35,535 nucleotides of DNA. It comes from Acidobacteriota bacterium (GTDB lineage: Bacteria > Acidobacteriota > Thermoanaerobaculia > UBA5066 > Gp7-AA6). Positions 27,950 through 35,535 of the stretch are shown piece by piece. Positions within the stretch are counted from its first letter, which is position 1; each line of letters starts with the position of its first letter. The position numbers and the translations under genes are program-made. The notes beneath the pieces are model-generated. The model did no database searches. It was given only the letters and a program-made list of their open reading frames with translations, and was not told the origin of the DNA. Where the stretch lies: positions 75,625 through 111,159 of the forward strand of contig DAHUXD010000039.1 in NCBI GenBank assembly GCA_027307335.1. The letters are read 5' to 3'.

Positions 27950-28954
27950 ATGGCGTTCATCGCCACCGCCTCCTCCTCCGCCTGGCTTCCCGTCCAGACT
28001 CCCTCCGCGTCCGAGCTCCGCGGCCTCGCGGCCCTCGACGCGACGCACGCGTGGGCGAGCGGCTCCGGCGGGACGGTCCTCCGGACGGGCGACGGCAAGA
28101 AATGGGAGAAGCTGCGCGCCCCCGAAGGCGGCGAGGCGCTCGACTTCCGCGACGTGGAGGCGCTCGGCGACAGGGTCGTCGTCCTCATGAGCGCCGGCCC
28201 CGGCGACGCGTCGCGCATCTACCGTTCGACCAACGGCGGCGAGACGTGGATGCTCGCGCACACGAATCCCGAGAAGGACGGCTTCTACGACGCGATCGCG
28301 TTCTTCGACGCGCAGGACGGCCTCGTGCTCGGCGACCCGGTGAACGGCAAGTTCCGCGTGCGCGCGACCCACGACGGCGGCGCGACGTGGGCGTCGGATC
28401 CCGGGCAGATCATGCCGGCGGCCTGGGAAGGGGAGGGCGCGTTCGCGGCCAGCGGCACCTGCCTCTTCGCGCTGAAGGGCGGCAACGACGCGTGGTTCGT
28501 CACGGGCGGCGCGAAGGAGGCCCGGGTCTTCCACACGACGGACCGCGGACGCGAGTGGACGGTCGCTTCGACGCCGGCGCCGGCGGGCAACGCGTCGTCG
28601 GGGCTGTTTTCGGTGGCGTTTCTGGACGCGCGACGCGGCTTCGCGTCGGGCGGCGACTACAAGCAGCCGCAGTTCAACGGCCTCAACGGCATCCGCACGG
28701 AAGACGGCGGCGCGACGTGGACCCCGTCGCCGTTGTCGGCGACGGGCTTCTACTCGGCGGTCGTCCCGGTTCCCGGCGCGAAGGACGACCTCGTCGCGGT
28801 CGGCCTCGCGGGCGAGGCCGCCTCCCACGACTCCGGCCGCTCGTGGACGAAGGCGGGCGACACCCCGATGAACGCCGCGGCGTTCACGGCGCTGGACTCG
28901 GGCTGGGCGGTCGGGCCGAAGGGAACTTCGCTGCGGCTCGCCGCGGGGCGTTAG
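27950..28954 (+). CDS. BNR/YCF48-type beta-propeller protein, probably exported
   Basis: This 334-residue protein is made of propeller blades with Asp-box signatures: STNGGETWMLA (about 93-103), THDGGATWAS (about 144-153), TTDRGREWTVA (about 198-208), TEDGGATWTPS (about 255-265) and SHDSGRSWTKA (about 296-306). It resembles photosystem-assembly YCF48-like and glycosidase-like WD/BNR proteins in acidobacteria; there is no sialidase FRIP or catalytic set, so I do not call it an enzyme. The N-terminus (MAFIATASSSA) is a weak signal. An in-frame GTG at 27929, inside the dispersed repeat, would add MRGKLIA and make a better signal peptide. The stop overlaps the convergent vapC stop. Confidence 0.82.
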   Translation: MAFIATASSSAWLPVQTPSASELRGLAALDATHAWASGSGGTVLRTGDGKKWEKLRAPEGGEALDFRDVEALGDRVVVLMSAGPGDASRIYRSTNGGETWMLAHTNPEKDGFYDAIAFFDAQDGLVLGDPVNGKFRVRATHDGGATWASDPGQIMPAAWEGEGAFAASGTCLFALKGGNDAWFVTGGAKEARVFHTTDRGREWTVASTPAPAGNASSGLFSVAFLDARRGFASGGDYKQPQFNGLNGIRTEDGGATWTPSPLSATGFYSAVVPVPGAKDDLVAVGLAGEAASHDSGRSWTKAGDTPMNAAAFTALDSGWAVGPKGTSLRLAAGR

Positions 28955-29397
28955 TCCCTTTCCTTCTCAAAGGGATTCCGCACCTTCAGGAACTCGTATT
29001 TCAGGAAGTCGCGGTCGTTCGTGTAGAGCGTCGGCACATCGTGCTGCCGGAGAAGGGCGGCGAGATGCGCGTCGGGGACGTCGTTGGCGCGGATCGAGAG
29101 GCCGCGGGTGACGTCGCGGTAGACGTCCCAGAACCCTTCCTGCTCGGAGAGCGGGCGCACATGGGGCATGGCGAGCAGCTCGGCGACGTTGCGCTCGGCC
29201 TGGTCGGCGGAAAGCGGATTCGACGACGCTGCCGGATGCGTCGCGAGGCGCAGATAACTCATGAGAGTCGGCCACCCAAGACAAAGAGTCTCCGGCCCCG
29301 TCGAGTGCTCCTCGAGAAACCTCTTCGCGCGCCCGTGGGCCGGACTCGCCGCGTCCGAGGCGTAGAGCAGAAGATTGACGTCGACGGCGAAACTCAA
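28951..29397 (-). CDS. PIN-domain ribonuclease toxin, VapC type
   Basis: This 148-residue protein starts at TTG 29397, which overlaps the antitoxin stop (TTGA), the usual coupling of a VapBC pair. The PIN motifs are visible: the first Asp in FAVDVNLLLYASD, the Glu in AERNVAELLA, the Asp of DVPDAHLAALL, and the C-terminal NDRDF. These acidic residues hold Mg for RNA cleavage. The target (tRNA or rRNA) cannot be told. The upstream antitoxin is a ribbon-helix-helix protein. The stop (28951-28953) overlaps the stop of the convergent propeller gene. Confidence 0.9.
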   Translation of the reverse strand: MSFAVDVNLLLYASDAASPAHGRAKRFLEEHSTGPETLCLGWPTLMSYLRLATHPAASSNPLSADQAERNVAELLAMPHVRPLSEQEGFWDVYRDVTRGLSIRANDVPDAHLAALLRQHDVPTLYTNDRDFLKYEFLKVRNPFEKERD

Positions 29398-29663
29398 CCC
29401 GACTGTCCTCGGGGAGGCTTCGCCAGAAGCCCTTCGTCCACCAAGGCCCGCAGCGATTCCTTGTCGGTCAGGTCCACGCGCAGCTTCATGGGCTTCGAGA
29501 TCCAATCGAGCTTTCCGGCGGGTTTGCGTCTGGAACCGTAGCGCGAGATCGCTTCGGCCAGGAGATCCGAGACGGTGCGCCCGAGGCTCTTGCCTTCCTG
29601 CTTCTGGATCCGTTTCAGATCGTCGAGAACCGGGCCGTCGATATCCACGGTAGTACGAGGCAT
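29394..29663 (-). CDS. Ribbon-helix-helix antitoxin, VapB type
   Basis: This 89-residue antitoxin starts MPRTTVDIDGPVLDDLKRIQ, the strand and first helix of a ribbon-helix-helix DNA-binding fold. EGKSLGRTVSDLLAEAISR (second helix) completes the domain. The C-terminal 40 residues form the toxin-binding tail. The gene precedes and overlaps vapC, as in most VapBC pairs. The start ATG 29663 lies only nine bases from the predicted -10, so the mRNA may be leaderless or have a very short leader; no ribosome site is visible. Autoregulation through the inverted repeat at 29663-29693 is expected. Confidence 0.88.
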   Translation of the reverse strand: MPRTTVDIDGPVLDDLKRIQKQEGKSLGRTVSDLLAEAISRYGSRRKPAGKLDWISKPMKLRVDLTDKESLRALVDEGLLAKPPRGQSG

Positions 29664-29701
29664 GATGCGGTGATGCTATTCAATAACGCATCAGATGTCA
29701 A
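29663..29701 (-). promoter_or_regulatory. vapB promoter with overlapping inverted repeat operator
   Basis: On the minus strand, TTGACA (29696-29701) and TAGCAT (29673-29678) are 17 bases apart, a strong sigma70-like pair in an unusually AT-rich pocket. The inverted repeat TGATGCG...CGCATCA (29663-29669 and 29687-29693) covers the -10 and the spacer. The antitoxin could bind it to shut the promoter. Confidence 0.65.
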
Positions 29702-29760: not shown

Positions 29761-29780
29761 CTCCCCAATTTTGGGGATGG
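29761..29780. promoter_or_regulatory. 20-bp palindromic motif, copy 1 (upstream of the 1214-aa/VWFA operon)
   Basis: CTCCCCAATTTTGGGGATGG contains the palindrome TCCCCAA-TT-TTGGGGA (7-bp arms). Eighteen of 20 bases are identical to the copy at 34773-34792, including bases outside the palindrome. It is 174 bases before the start of the large secreted protein gene. A transcription factor site is the likeliest reading. Confidence 0.6.
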
Positions 29781-29953
29781 CCTGCGACTCGGGTAGAGAA
29801 TAGCGTTCCTCGGCGCCCCCTCCTCGATTTTGGCGCCGGGTCGACTGCTGAGCTGATGCAAGGGTGGTGGGGATGTTCGCGATGAGCCGCCGCGCGATGC
29901 GTCTGCGTGCCGCTCGCGATGTCGGAGCCACTCGTTCAATTCCCGGCAATCGG

Positions 29954-32900
29954 ATGATGCGGGCACTGCTCGGCGGCGCGATTCTCGCGATGCTCGCCGG
30001 CGGCGCGGCCGCCGACGCTCCCGACATGGTTCCGGTCCCCGGCGGGCCCGCCTCCGTGCGACGTCTCGTCGGCCTCGATCCCGAGCGCCCCGACGCGACC
30101 TTCTTCGTGGACCTTCACGAGGTCCTCCTCTTCGGCTCGGCCGAGAAGACCTCGTGGTCGAAGATCGAAGGCCGCCGGAAGATCGTCGACTTCGTGGACG
30201 ACCTGCGCGAGTGGCGCGTCGAGTTCGGCGCGCCGGCCACCTTCGCCGTCGCGCCGAAGGATCAGTGGAAGAAGACCGAGCGGGCGCTCGAGTGGCTCGG
30301 CTTCAAGGTCCGCGGCGAGGGAAGGACGTTCACGACGCAGCGCCGCCAGGACGCGGATTCCTCGAGGCGGCAGGGCTTCCTCGACGCGATCGGCACGCCG
30401 ACCGCCGCGTTTCTCGAGAAGCTGCACGCCGGCGAGACCGTGACGGTGTCCGTCGCCGACGCTCCCGCGCCGCTGCCCTACGGCCTCGCGGCGTGGCGCG
30501 AGACGCTCTCGGAATCGGACCTGACGGCCCAGAGCGCGTTTCTCTACTTCGACAAGAACGTGCGCGCCTCGCGCATGCTCGTGGCCCTCTCCGCGCTCGA
30601 CCCGCAGACCCGGGAGGAGCTCCGGACGCTCGTGCGCGACGAGAAGGGACGCCATCGCGGCTGGGCGATGCTCTACGAGGACACGCTCGAGCCGTTCTCC
30701 CGCTATCCCGAGGCCCTGATGCTCCGCAACGGCCAGATCGTTCTGCCCGGCGGCAAGGAGGCGGAACCGATCTGGACGAACATCTTCGGCGTGGCGCCGT
30801 CGGATCGCGCCCGCTTCCTGACCGCCCTCTTCGACGTGGACGGCGGCAAGGGGGCCTACGTCGTCGACACGCTGCAGCATCTCCCCGACGCGACCGTGCG
30901 GGAGCTCCTCTTCGGCAAGACCGGCGGCGGCGAGAAGGCCGTGAAGCGGTTCCGCCGGCTGTACAAGTCCTTCGATCGCGCCGCCGACAACTTCGAGCTG
31001 ACGAAGCGCGATCCCTACGACTTCGCGCAGCTCGCGCCGTTCATCCGCATGTCCGACGAGGGGGCGCTGTCGCTTCCCGCCGTCGACGCCGACGGCGACT
31101 TCCCGCGGAACGAGTCCGAGCTCGCGGAGGAGGTCGCCAGGGCCAGGAGCAGCGCCGCCTCTCCGGAAGAATCTCTGCGCCGACTCTTTCGCCACGACAC
31201 GACCGGGCGCGCGGGCAGTTTCCCCGGTCAGCGCCGGTTTCTCTTCGCGTCGAGTCTGCTCGCGCAGAACCCGGCCCTCTCGGACCCCGGCCTCGTAATC
31301 CTGCTCTACCGCGGCCTCGACCGCTTCCTCCCCGCCTACGCCGTGCTGCAGGACCTTCCCCTCGACGGGCCGGAGCTCGCGCGCCGCTATCTCTTCGCGC
31401 TCGACCGGCTGGACCGGCGCAGCGACTCCCGCGACCGCGAGATTGCGATCGGGCTCTTCGAGTGCGACGTCGAGCTCCTCGCCCGTCTCTCGCGGTCCGA
31501 TGCGCTGCCGCCGCCGGCGATCCGGTCCCTCTTCGCGGACCTGCTCGCCATTCCGCTGTTCGCGCAGGAGGGCGTTTCGCCGGCGGCCGGAGAGGCCGCG
31601 CTGTATCAGTGGCTCTCGGTCCGACTGCTCGCCTCGCTGCGCGACGAGGAGCGGCGGATGATCGAGAAGCGTCGCGAGTCGAAGGCGCTCCGCGAGAACG
31701 AGTATCGCGAGGCGCTGCGGGAGCGCGACGAGCGCATCCTCGCCCGCCTCGCGGCGTCGCGTGCCGCCGCCGAGGACTTCCGCGCGGCCGCCGAGGCGAG
31801 GCTCGCCGCAGCCCTCGGTCCGCCGTGCGGTCCGGACGACGCGGTGATCGGTCCGCCGACGCCGGTCTATCTCGTCGACGAGCGCGCTCTCGCCGAGACG
31901 CTGTCTCCGGGCGATCCCGTCCTCGGCGAGGACCAGGCGGCGCGGTGGATGGAGGAGACCCTGGACGTCGAGCGAGCGCGGGCGCTTCCGCTGCCCCCGG
32001 CGCCCGCGCCTCCGCGAGAGCCCGCCGATCTGGCCGGCACGACGGCTCTGGTGGACGCGGCGGAGCCGCTGCCGCGCCTCGTGCGGGTGGACGTTCCCGC
32101 GGAGACCGCGGACGCCGACGAGCTCCTCGCGCGAGCGCTCATCGGGCCGCCCGACACGGCGTACTTCGAGTGGCGGGGCGGTCACTACCGATTCGATCCG
32201 GCGTCGGACGCGGCGGCGCGGCGCCGGAGCTTCCGCATGAAGCAGCACCTGACCTGGCTCGTGGCGCTCGAGGCCATTCACGCGGATCGCAACGCCGCCC
32301 TCGCCGCGGCCGCGAAAGGAGACCTGGCCGGCTCGAAGAAGGGCGTGGCGGACGAGGTGCCGCTGCTCCGGCTCGGCCCGGCCAAAGACGCGAACGTCGG
32401 GGCCGAGGACGAGCGTGTCCTCAAGGAAGAATCGCGCGCCCGGGACGCCGCCTCGGACATCGCCGAAATCTCGAAGCCGGGCCGCCTCGGCAAGGTCGCC
32501 GACTGGATGCCGCCGATCGACAGCGTCGTCGCGGAACGGCACCTCGAGGCGGTGCTCGGACACGTGTACGCCGCGAGCGCCGGCAACCCCGACGACCTCT
32601 ACTACGAGAACCCCGATTTCGTGCGGCACCACTCCCTGCGCACCGTCGAGCACGCCGGAGTCACGATAGAGAGTCCCTTCCTGAAGACGGCGCTCCTGAC
32701 GGGCTCCGAGGGGAAGGGCGCGGCGATCACCGGGTCCGTCTTCGGCCTTCCGGACGTCCTGGGCCTCCTTCACGCGGACCAGCTCGCGTACGCTCCGGGC
32801 GCCGGCGTCGCCTCCGAGGAGATGCGCGCGGGGTTCGTGGCGCCGATCTGGCGCGTCGAGCCGGCGCGCGTCGACGACGATGCGCTGCGCGCGGTGGCGG

Positions 32901-33598
32901 ACTCCTGCCGCACCGCGGAAGAGGTCGCGGCGGCGCCGACCAGCGCGACCCCTGCCGAGCGCTTCGCGCTCTGGGACTCGGTCGCGCGCGACCTGGTGCC
33001 CCGGGCGCGTCTCGGAGAGATCGCGTCGCTCGAGTCGGACTCGGCGGCGGCGGCCGCGGCCGTGTACCTGACGCCCTCCGATCGATACGAGATCGGCCGA
33101 AGGCTCGCGGCTTCGCCGGACGCTCCGGGGCGTGTCGCGACGCCGGCGGCGGCGAAGGCGCATGACGCGTACTCGGCCCTGACGAAGAAGTACGGCGCGG
33201 CCGGCGCGAAGGCGCGCCTTGCCGAATTCGGACCACGCCCGGTCTCCTACGCGGGCTCCTTCCGCCTGTCCGACATCGACATGCCGCCGTACGAGCGGCT
33301 GGCCATGTACCGCTTCCCGCAGATCCTGAGCGACCGTCTCTACGATCTGAAGATCGTCGTCGCCTGCCGGCTCGTGGAGGAGGGCCTGCCCGCCGCGCTC
33401 CTTCCCCTCGTGTTGCCGGCGGCGCTGGACGCGACCCTCGTCCACCTGAAGATGGCGTACGCCTACGACTGGCCGGCGACCGTGCGCGCGGCGTCGCGGT
33501 TCTCGCGCGAGGATCTCGATCGCATTCTCGACGAGAGCGTCCGCTCCGGGCGGATCACGCGGGACGAGGGGCCGGAGCCCGAGGGAAGGAATCCGTGA
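29954..33598 (+). CDS. Very large secreted protein of unknown function
   Basis: The protein has 1214 residues. The ATG pair at 29954/29957 is chosen because MMRALLGGAILAMLAGGAAADAP is a good signal peptide (cleavage near 21); longer readings upstream begin inside non-coding-like sequence. No known domain is evident. The region 25-560 is mixed helix/strand with several aromatic patches. About 560-640 is a long charged coiled coil (EERRMIEKRRESKALRENE). A Pro/Ala linker (about 680-700) leads to a second helical half (about 710-1214), with YFEWRGGHYRFDP and a C-terminal SYAGSFRLSDIDMPPYERLA. There are no transmembrane helices after the signal. The stop overlaps the GTG start of the VWFA gene (33595-33598), so the two proteins are probably made together. 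I cannot name a function. Confidence 0.8.
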   Translation: MMRALLGGAILAMLAGGAAADAPDMVPVPGGPASVRRLVGLDPERPDATFFVDLHEVLLFGSAEKTSWSKIEGRRKIVDFVDDLREWRVEFGAPATFAVAPKDQWKKTERALEWLGFKVRGEGRTFTTQRRQDADSSRRQGFLDAIGTPTAAFLEKLHAGETVTVSVADAPAPLPYGLAAWRETLSESDLTAQSAFLYFDKNVRASRMLVALSALDPQTREELRTLVRDEKGRHRGWAMLYEDTLEPFSRYPEALMLRNGQIVLPGGKEAEPIWTNIFGVAPSDRARFLTALFDVDGGKGAYVVDTLQHLPDATVRELLFGKTGGGEKAVKRFRRLYKSFDRAADNFELTKRDPYDFAQLAPFIRMSDEGALSLPAVDADGDFPRNESELAEEVARARSSAASPEESLRRLFRHDTTGRAGSFPGQRRFLFASSLLAQNPALSDPGLVILLYRGLDRFLPAYAVLQDLPLDGPELARRYLFALDRLDRRSDSRDREIAIGLFECDVELLARLSRSDALPPPAIRSLFADLLAIPLFAQEGVSPAAGEAALYQWLSVRLLASLRDEERRMIEKRRESKALRENEYREALRERDERILARLAASRAAAEDFRAAAEARLAAALGPPCGPDDAVIGPPTPVYLVDERALAETLSPGDPVLGEDQAARWMEETLDVERARALPLPPAPAPPREPADLAGTTALVDAAEPLPRLVRVDVPAETADADELLARALIGPPDTAYFEWRGGHYRFDPASDAAARRRSFRMKQHLTWLVALEAIHADRNAALAAAAKGDLAGSKKGVADEVPLLRLGPAKDANVGAEDERVLKEESRARDAASDIAEISKPGRLGKVADWMPPIDSVVAERHLEAVLGHVYAASAGNPDDLYYENPDFVRHHSLRTVEHAGVTIESPFLKTALLTGSEGKGAAITGSVFGLPDVLGLLHADQLAYAPGAGVASEEMRAGFVAPIWRVEPARVDDDALRAVADSCRTAEEVAAAPTSATPAERFALWDSVARDLVPRARLGEIASLESDSAAAAAAVYLTPSDRYEIGRRLAASPDAPGRVATPAAAKAHDAYSALTKKYGAAGAKARLAEFGPRPVSYAGSFRLSDIDMPPYERLAMYRFPQILSDRLYDLKIVVACRLVEEGLPAALLPLVLPAALDATLVHLKMAYAYDWPATVRAASRFSREDLDRILDESVRSGRITRDEGPEPEGRNP

Positions 33599-34743
33599 GA
33601 CGCGGAGTCCTCTCGATCGTCGCGGCCGTTCTGGCGGGAGCGGCGCGGTCGAGCGCGGTGGCCCAGGAGGCCGCGCCGGGGACGGCCGCCATCCGCCTCG
33701 TCTCTCCCGGCTCGGCCGACATGCCCGTCGGGGAGGTCGCGATCGAAGCGGCGGTCGACGGAGCCCAGGCCGGCGATGCGGTGGACTTCTTCGTCGACGG
33801 CCGCAAGGTCGGAACGGCAACCGCGGCTCCGTGGAAGATCGCGTGGCAGGCCGGCGAGGCGCTCCGCGCGCACACGATCAGCGCCGTCCTCGTTCGCGGC
33901 GGCCGCGAGATCGCGAGCGGACGCGTGCGCACGCGCGATCCGGGGTTCACGGCGACGGCCGACGTGCGCGCCGTTTCGCTCGCGCCCATCGTGACGACGC
34001 GCAGCGGCGACTACATCTACGGCCTCGCCCGCGGCGACTTCAGCGTCACCGACGACGGCGTGCGGCAGGAGATCGAGACGTTCGAGTCGGCGGATTCGCC
34101 GCTCTCGGCCATCCTGGTGCTCGACACGTCGGCGTCGATGCGGCCGAAGCTCGAGGACGCGACGCGCGCGGCGCGGGCCTTCGTCCAGGCGCTGAAGAAA
34201 GACGACGAAGTCGGGCTGTTCACGTTCAACACCTCGGTCGTGGGCTCGGTCGACCTCACGGCGGATCGGGCGCGCGTCGAGGAGGCGATCGGCGCGGTCC
34301 AGCCGGCGGGGGAGACGGCGCTGTACGACGCGATCGCCGCCGCCCTGAAGCGGCTCAGGTCGATCAAACGGCGAAAGGCCGTGGTGGTCTTCACCGACGG
34401 AGAGGACAACCGGAGCCGCCTTTCGGTCGCGCAGGTCATCGACATGGCGCGGGCGTCGGAGGTGTCGATCTACTCGGTGGCGGAGGGCGCCGACGCAACG
34501 ACGACCGTGACGACTTTCCTCGACCGCATCGCCGCCCAGACGGGCGGCCGCGCCTGGTTCATCGGCCACATCCGGAAGCTGTCGGAGGCCTTCGACGGCG
34601 TCGTGAAGGAGCTGCGGAGCAGCTACTTCCTCACCTACACGCCGAAGCCCCCCGGAAGGCCGGGAAGCTGGCACCAGGTCGAAGTCCGGGTGTCACGTGC
34701 GGATGCGGTGGTGCGCGCGAAGCGCGAGTACCTGGTCGAGTAA
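33595..34743 (+). CDS. Exported VWFA-domain protein (acidobacterial type)
   Basis: This 382-residue protein has a signal peptide (1-24, VLSIVAAVLAGAARSSAVA), then an Ig-like beta region (about 30-145). The VWFA domain starts at about 170 with a MIDAS motif: DTSASM at 177-182 (DxSxS), Thr in ETALYDA, and Asp in VFTDGEDNRS. The family is the VWFA-related acidobacterial domain protein (TIGR03436-like), which binds protein ligands through a metal ion. GTG 33595 overlaps the stop of the upstream 1214-residue protein gene, which implies joint production and perhaps a complex. No membrane anchor after the signal is evident. Confidence 0.9.
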   Translation: MRRGVLSIVAAVLAGAARSSAVAQEAAPGTAAIRLVSPGSADMPVGEVAIEAAVDGAQAGDAVDFFVDGRKVGTATAAPWKIAWQAGEALRAHTISAVLVRGGREIASGRVRTRDPGFTATADVRAVSLAPIVTTRSGDYIYGLARGDFSVTDDGVRQEIETFESADSPLSAILVLDTSASMRPKLEDATRAARAFVQALKKDDEVGLFTFNTSVVGSVDLTADRARVEEAIGAVQPAGETALYDAIAAALKRLRSIKRRKAVVVFTDGEDNRSRLSVAQVIDMARASEVSIYSVAEGADATTTVTTFLDRIAAQTGGRAWFIGHIRKLSEAFDGVVKELRSSYFLTYTPKPPGRPGSWHQVEVRVSRADAVVRAKREYLVE

Positions 34744-34772
34744 ACCTTCCGTAAATCTTCGAGGCGGATTGT

Positions 34773-34792
34773 CTCCCCAGTATTGGGGATGG
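34773..34792. promoter_or_regulatory. 20-bp palindromic motif, copy 2 (upstream of the LuxR-type gene)
   Basis: CTCCCCAGTATTGGGGATGG contains TCCCCA-GTAT-TGGGGA (6-bp arms). It differs from copy 1 at two central bases. It lies 30 bases after the VWFA stop and 132 bases before the LuxR-type start. A second inverted repeat follows at 34809-34826. Confidence 0.6.
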
Positions 34793-34808: not shown

Positions 34809-34826
34809 TGGGAGAGCATTCTCCCA
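34809..34826. promoter_or_regulatory. Inverted repeat TGGGAGA-GCAT-TCTCCCA
   Basis: This is a perfect 7-bp inverted repeat with a four-base spacer, 17 bases after the palindromic motif. It could be a second operator or a terminator-like hairpin for the VWFA transcript. A perfect TTGACA (34843-34848) lies 16 bases further; I see no convincing -10 at the right distance. Confidence 0.5.
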
Positions 34827-34924
34827 ACTCGAAGGCTCTCCTTTGACACAACGCGCTGTAACGCTTTCGCCTCTGCGGCGACTCTTCTGCAACGAGCGCG
34901 ACCACTCCGCGCGTTCGATGCGCC

Positions 34925-35182
34925 ATGATGCCGAAGAAGATCGATAAGCAGCGCGCCGCGGGGACCGCGGATCTCCTGCGCGAGCGCTTCGGTCTCACGC
35001 CCGCGGAGGCGAGCGTCGCGATGCTCGTCGCGGACGGCCTCCGGTACGCCGAGATCGCGGAGCAGCTCGCGGTCTCCTCTCACACGGTCCACACCCACAT
35101 CAAGGAAATCCACCGCAAGTTCGACGTGCATTCGAACGGGCGCGCGGCGGCGCTGATTCGGGGGCTGGGGGAGAGGGAGTGA
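34925..35182 (+). CDS. Stand-alone LuxR/GerE-type helix-turn-helix protein
   Basis: This 85-residue protein is almost only a LuxR C-terminal DNA-binding domain: FGLTPAEASVAMLVADGLRYAEIAEQLAVSSHTVHTHIKEIHRKFDVHSNGRAAALIRGL. The start is ATG 34925 (or 34928) without a strong ribosome site. There is no receiver or ligand-binding domain. Short GerE proteins of this kind may act as direct repressors/activators or need a partner. Its position 132 bases after palindromic motif copy 2, and 1.3 kb from the coupled secreted pair, makes it the natural candidate to bind the motif. Confidence 0.88.
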   Translation: MMPKKIDKQRAAGTADLLRERFGLTPAEASVAMLVADGLRYAEIAEQLAVSSHTVHTHIKEIHRKFDVHSNGRAAALIRGLGERE

Positions 35183-35270: not shown

Positions 35271-35535
35271 ATGACTGACTGCAACCGGGTTCGTTCTGTC
35301 CTGGCGACAGTTGCGCTGGCGCCGTTGATGATTCTCCTCTCGGACAATCGGTTGAGTGCCCAGACTCAGGACGTCACGCCCCCGATCTTGACGGCGTTCG
35401 ACTATTCGCCGGGGTCGATCGACGTGACATCGGGTTCCGTCACGGTGACGGCGAACGCACACATTACGGACGATCTGTCGGGTGAGGGTTTCGCGTACAT
35501 CTATTTTCGCAGCCCGTCCGGTGCTCACTATCGGG
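35271..35535 (+). CDS. Secreted Ig-like protein, 3' truncated by window
   Basis: The ATG at 35271 follows a strong ribosome site (AGAGGAGGATCCT). The first 88 residues are seen. A signal peptide (VRSVLATVALAPLMILLS, cleavage near LSAQ at about 32) is followed by QDVTPPILTAFDYSPGSIDV and TVTANAHITDDLSGEGFAYI, a beta-sandwich-like sequence found in exported, often calcium- or carbohydrate-linked, modules. The frame stays open to the window edge, so its full length is unknown. It follows the LuxR-type gene by 88 bases and could be its target. The gap (35183-35270) includes GTAGGGGGCGAG, which only loosely resembles the dispersed repeat. Confidence 0.75.
   Translation, partial: MTDCNRVRSVLATVALAPLMILLSDNRLSAQTQDVTPPILTAFDYSPGSIDVTSGSVTVTANAHITDDLSGEGFAYIYFRSPSGAHYR

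Follow-up and report, generated by a model that had tools for sequence, protein, structure and literature searches.

Palindromic candidate operators of a stand-alone LuxR-type regulator around a secreted-protein/VWFA operon in an acidobacterial genome

To our knowledge, few LuxR-type operators are known in Acidobacteriota, and a search of the available literature for HTH-only LuxR regulators in Acidobacteria found no report. In Bacillus, the regulator GerE is encoded by a 225-bp gene (PMC5595907). Stand-alone regulators of the GerE type resemble P0001, the small regulator of the locus described here, in that they comprise ~80 residues, consist almost only of the GerE HTH and carry neither a receiver nor an autoinducer domain. 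However, P0001 is not orthologous to GerE: it belongs to a different phylum, its gene lies beside secreted-protein/VWFA genes and not beside sporulation genes, and the site proposed for it is a CCCC-N6-GGGG palindrome. MalT, a member of the LuxR family, binds GGGGA(T/G)GAGG in enterobacteria, and in Actinoplanes its target is the palindrome TCATCC-5nt-GGATGA, located over the -35 region (PMC7567727). The sites described here share with these targets the GGGGA(T/G)G-like half-sites and, with the Actinoplanes palindrome, the outward-pointing inverted repeat. The gap, however, is 6 bp and not 5 and the arm is GGGGAT, and the likeness is one of the site, not of membership, MalT being a large ATP-binding regulator whereas P0001 is HTH only. 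The second gene of the neighboring operon fits the acidobacterial VWFA proteins (TIGR03436), whereas its operon partner, P0002, has no named family.

The stretch of DNA that was analyzed (the window, 35,535 nucleotides) comes from a draft genome of 4.37 Mb, in which it makes up the right-hand end of a 111-kb contig. The features considered are as follows.

29761..29780, plus strand: palindromic site 1, CTCCCCAATTTTGGGGATGG, upstream of the secreted-protein/VWFA operon; proposed operator
29954..33598, plus strand: P0002, predicted secreted protein, 1214 aa from the ATG at 29954 (longest ORF 1244 aa, start 29864)
33595..34743, plus strand: P0003, VWFA-domain protein with a Big_7 domain (TIGR03436 acidobact_VWFA)
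34773..34792, plus strand: palindromic site 2, CTCCCCAGTATTGGGGATGG, between the VWFA stop codon and the luxR ATG; proposed operator
34809..34826, no strand: second inverted repeat, TGGGAGAGCATTCTCCCA, 16 bp past site 2
34925..35182, plus strand: P0001, 85-aa stand-alone GerE/LuxR-type HTH protein (PF00196, residues 24-75); proposed binder of both sites
35271..35535, plus strand: P0005, further predicted secreted protein, start only; preceded by AGGAGG, runs off the contig end

The two palindromes and their setting

Sites 1 and 2 are identical at 18 of 20 positions, both mismatches being central, and the similarity between them ends at 20 bp. In each of the 16-bp cores, TCCCCAATTTTGGGGA and TCCCCAGTATTGGGGA, 7 of 8 positions pair, which makes both near-perfect palindromes. 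The two sites have the same orientation, and both lie in non-coding DNA 5' of genes. A preliminary description of this DNA had claimed that the match included bases outside the palindrome, that site 1 preceded the secreted-protein/VWFA operon and that site 2 preceded the 85-residue LuxR-type gene. Both 20-mers were found at the coordinates listed above with an unpaired TGG matching, and the coordinates of the genes agree with the placement.

Site 1 falls between two divergent units, a PIN/antitoxin-like pair on the minus strand and, on the plus strand, the secreted-protein/VWFA operon. Site 2 follows ~30 bp past the VWFA stop codon (34743) and precedes the luxR ATG (34925) by 132 bp. The signal-peptide-like sequence of P0002 begins at the ATG at 29954, as judged by eye, and the protein has no Pfam or NCBIfam family. 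P0003 scored 183.3 bits against TIGR03436 (cut-off 81.25), identifying it as an acidobacterial VWFA protein, a match that points to Acidobacteriota as the phylum of this DNA. The start of its gene and the P0002 stop codon overlap by 4 bp, which places both genes in the same operon. No convincing sigma-70 promoter placed by site 1 or site 2 was found. The inverted repeat TGGGAGAGCATTCTCCCA after site 2 may provide extra half-sites, or it may form a hairpin. Between this repeat and the luxR gene stands a perfect TTGACA (34843-34848) with no obvious -10.

Palindromes of this kind could also act in the transcript, as hairpins belonging to a structured RNA, a terminator or an attenuator, and not as DNA sites. 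As isolated 31-36-mers both can fold into a small stable hairpin (z -2.98 and -2.39), and site 2 is placed directly behind the VWFA stop codon, with the second inverted repeat coming after it. In longer contexts, however, the folding was only modestly better than that of shuffles (z -1.16 and -1.94). No Rfam match was obtained at the sites, and the test for an intrinsic terminator was negative, with neither a T-run nor a terminator call at either of them. Moreover, no terminator is expected at site 1 in its divergent intergenic region, and a hairpin does not need 18/20 identity that includes the unpaired TGG bases. We consider a function as RNA hairpins improbable.

The minus-strand pair at 28951-29693 consists of a PIN-domain toxin gene and a small antitoxin-like gene and is VapBC-like. 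Here, a good sigma-70-like promoter has its -10 hexamer, TAGCAT (29678-29673), within the inverted repeat TGATGC-N11-GCATCA (29671-29693), which is the usual layout of an autoregulated toxin-antitoxin operon.

Frequency of the motif and a third site

Allowing up to 3 mismatches, the 20-mer occurs at 2 places in the whole 4.37-Mb genome, namely sites 1 and 2, which are 5 kb apart; occurrence at many unrelated loci at chance frequency, which the preliminary description had named as the finding that would speak against it, was thus not observed. At the same tolerance 0.01 matches to the consensus are expected per shuffled window, and for copies of site 1 with no more than 2 mismatches the expected number is ~2e-5 within 5 kb and ~0.009 over the genome.

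Whether the resemblance could be due to chance depends on how the sequence is shuffled. Without restriction to non-coding DNA, near-palindrome pairs at 17/20, GC-rich ones among them, were frequent (79 of 200 shuffles), and the real window itself contains three, two GC-only pairs in addition to sites 1 and 2. Palindromicity and similarity alone are therefore not convincing, and the significance of the pair rests on its position, its AT-rich center and its uniqueness in the genome. Among 5000 runs with shuffled intergenic DNA, however, 4 gave a near-palindrome pair with at least 18 of 20 positions identical; this is the fairer test, since it accepts any near-palindrome pair and does not start from the observed sequence. 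With this result, and with 2e-5 copies expected within 5 kb, a chance origin is very hard to credit.

Exact matches to the core CCANNNTTGGGGANGG number three in the genome and comprise sites 1 and 2 together with C49:40581; this count is partly after the fact because the pattern was loosened at one position once the third site had been seen. On this contig (C49), CTCCCCTGTTCCGGGGATCG, which ends one base before C49:40581, can be aligned with sites 1 and 2 in the same register. All three sites share CTCCCC-N6-GGGGAT without change and differ only in the center or just outside the arms. Over the full length the C49 site matches site 1 at only 15 of 20 positions, and this likeness was noticed after the fact. 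The C49 site is oriented towards a gene that begins ~105 bp downstream and encodes a CarboxypepD_reg/TonB-plug outer-membrane protein.

The fixed arms also bear on the proposal that the sites are direct repeats left by an insertion or duplication, either as att-like or target-site repeats of a 5-kb cassette or as a copied promoter stretch. Such an origin would fit the two direct 20-bp copies that bracket the operon exactly, and the secreted-protein/VWFA pair does occupy different contexts in relatives. However, the mismatches are central, where an att core must be identical, and the arms are kept in the C49 copy too; fixed arms with a variable center fit an operator read by a dimer and argue against an att core or a target-site duplication. 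In addition, the similarity is limited to 20 bp, the GC content of the operon resembles that of the flanks to its left, no recombinase was recognized among the adjacent proteins scanned, and only two such copies exist in the genome, which excludes a REP or MITE family. We therefore assign little probability to an insertion or duplication, and regard the two palindromes as operators with good confidence.

Several other matches were rejected as sites. The CCCC-GGGG matches at C49:35555 (inside the C49 secreted gene) and C49:54588 are coding, as are those at C7:65439 and on C28 and C31; C7:66165 is a GC-rich intergenic repeat and probably different. A viral contig (L189) carries the exact 20-mer pattern inside an open reading frame, which was judged to be chance.

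The stand-alone regulator, its paralog and the candidate binder

The GerE domain of P0001 (PF00196) scored 45.8 bits in the Pfam scan against a curated cut-off of 23.5 (E 4.7e-12), and its PDB matches are EsrB, NarL, DesR and VraR. No receiver, autoinducer-binding or ATPase domain was found in the Pfam and NCBIfam scans, and P0001 is accordingly a stand-alone GerE-like regulator. An assignment as a quorum-sensing LuxR (AHL receptor) was rejected on its short length and the lack of an N-terminal autoinducer-binding domain in Pfam, and one as a MalT-type regulator on its 85 aa and a score of 26 against a cut-off of 537 for the NCBIfam MalT model. Since P0001 has no sensory domain, control would have to run through its own amount or through a partner. 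The secreted protein P0005 is probably co-transcribed with luxR.

The only close paralog of P0001 in the genome is P0004 (52% identity, E 8e-15; next best E 2e-4), which is encoded on C49, 4.3 kb from the third site. It is also HTH-only and its gene lies between two predicted secreted-protein genes. The two proteins are mutual best matches among ~147 genomes of the class, and no close homolog of P0001 was found in the other sampled genomes of this set. Both have HTVHTH in the recognition helix, a sequence absent from the three other LuxR hits of the genome with a readable helix. The C49 site stands before a different operon from that of P0004, and the upstream region of the P0004 operon itself contains no copy of the site.

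Because the half-site GGGGATG resembles the MalT boxes, which are bound by LuxR-family HTHs, a LuxR-type HTH is a natural candidate binder, and the third in-register site 4.3 kb from an HTVHTH-type paralog makes a LuxR/GerE-type binder plausible. Judging from the sequence, we lean towards both palindromes being operators of one dimeric LuxR/GerE-type regulator, which would most simply be P0001. The sites may instead belong to a different regulator encoded elsewhere, LuxR-type or an unrelated dimer, for which the 85-aa LuxR gene would be one target. The genome encodes several further LuxR-type proteins, the case for P0001 draws on neighborhood and analogy, and what precedes the C49 site is an ECF sigma/protein kinase pair, not P0004. 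Against this, the core occurs at three places only, none of them more than 5 kb away from one of the two LuxR genes of the HTVHTH type, and the remaining LuxR proteins with a readable recognition helix differ there. We think a different regulator rather unlikely.

With P0001 as the binder, each GGGGA(T)G half-site would be occupied by one HTH of the dimer, the arms pointing outwards across the 6-bp center. Binding at site 2 would regulate the luxR gene itself and probably also the secreted gene behind it, and binding at site 1 the secreted-protein/VWFA operon. As at MalT boxes, the regulator would more likely activate from near the -35 region, and thereby stimulate its own synthesis, than act as a repressor. 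The C49 site and the paralog with the same recognition-helix sequence would extend this to a small network in which two regulators act on exported proteins and proteins of the outer membrane. We put forward only tentatively that the HTH-only P0001 and P0004 form a cross-talking network in one acidobacterial lineage, controlling exported proteins via a CTCCCC-N6-GGGGAT operator. Its targets would be the P0002/VWFA pair, the TonB-type outer-membrane protein and the secreted genes beside each regulator.

The palindromes would represent one more case of a familiar type of local LuxR-type regulation. If P0001 does act on them, the locus would supply the conserved, uncharacterized secreted-protein/VWFA pair with a defined operator and a candidate regulator, and show how a sensorless GerE-like protein can be wired locally to exported proteins. 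This would be a modest addition to known LuxR-type regulation; apart from being peculiar to this genome, the arrangement is ordinary local gene control.

Further observations were made on the surroundings of P0004. In L117 (G000:C49:28000-46000) the order is secreted A, P0004, secreted B, A and B being alike. The P0004 ATG overlaps the stop codon of secreted A as ATGA, and the similar gene B then follows. The trio is divergent from an ECF sigma gene that overlaps a gene for a protein kinase with PD40 repeats; the order on C49 is this ECF sigma/protein kinase pair, then the third site, then the TonB-type outer-membrane gene. At ~54.7-55.0 kb of the same contig (L014, G000:C49), a minus-strand frame of ~1000 aa contains tandem TTCGAGATGTTCTGG-like asparagine-rich repeats.

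The locus in related genomes

Homologs of P0002 were found in four genomes (G001, G010, G012 and G014). In the three relatives where the pairing could be read (G001, G010 and G012), all of the same family and order as the source genome, the homolog is paired with a VWFA gene; in G014 the contig ends before such a gene could be read. The surroundings of the pair vary. In G001 the pair starts 8 bp after a transporter-like gene, named by eye as NRAMP-like, and in G010 and G012 an unrelated reading frame ends just before it. Neither a palindrome at or near the P0002 homologs of the four genomes nor an orthologous luxR next to the pair in the relatives was found in the available sequence. LuxR-type matches on the contig of the pair in G010 and G012 were rejected as orthologs of the mini-regulator, as they represent a longer frame beside a chromosome-segregation-like gene.

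The motif was absent from the whole genomes of 60 near relatives, those that carry the pair included. Among 396 genomes of the phylum, the looser pattern TCCCCANNNTTGGGGA had one stray place each in 15 others, which is no more than a control pattern gave, and many of these places are in coding DNA. The arrangement of palindrome and regulator is a feature of one genome among those examined, and with neither an orthologous locus carrying the motif nor a close P0001 homolog, these genomes permit no phylogenetic footprinting.

The preliminary description had proposed a test of whether palindrome, secreted pair and regulator co-occur in relatives; the pair is kept there, with no palindrome and no adjacent luxR in the available sequence. 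Its proposal that the regulator controls both its own gene and the secreted pair stands in part, the sequences making a shared operator likely and P0001 a plausible binder, whereas the trio as such was not found in relatives. The term "small self-contained system" is doubtful, given a third site elsewhere in the genome, and finds no support beyond the source genome.

Palindromes also occur 5' of other small LuxR genes in the class, and their sequences differ from sites 1 and 2. One genus of the class, g18, repeatedly encodes HTH-only LuxR-like proteins of ~80-112 aa (L159, L162, L165, L167, L170 and L172). Several of these genes adjoin one for a 370-390-aa protein that begins like MEDVVRLLQEAAFDESRW, and the two products are perhaps a split sensor/HTH pair.
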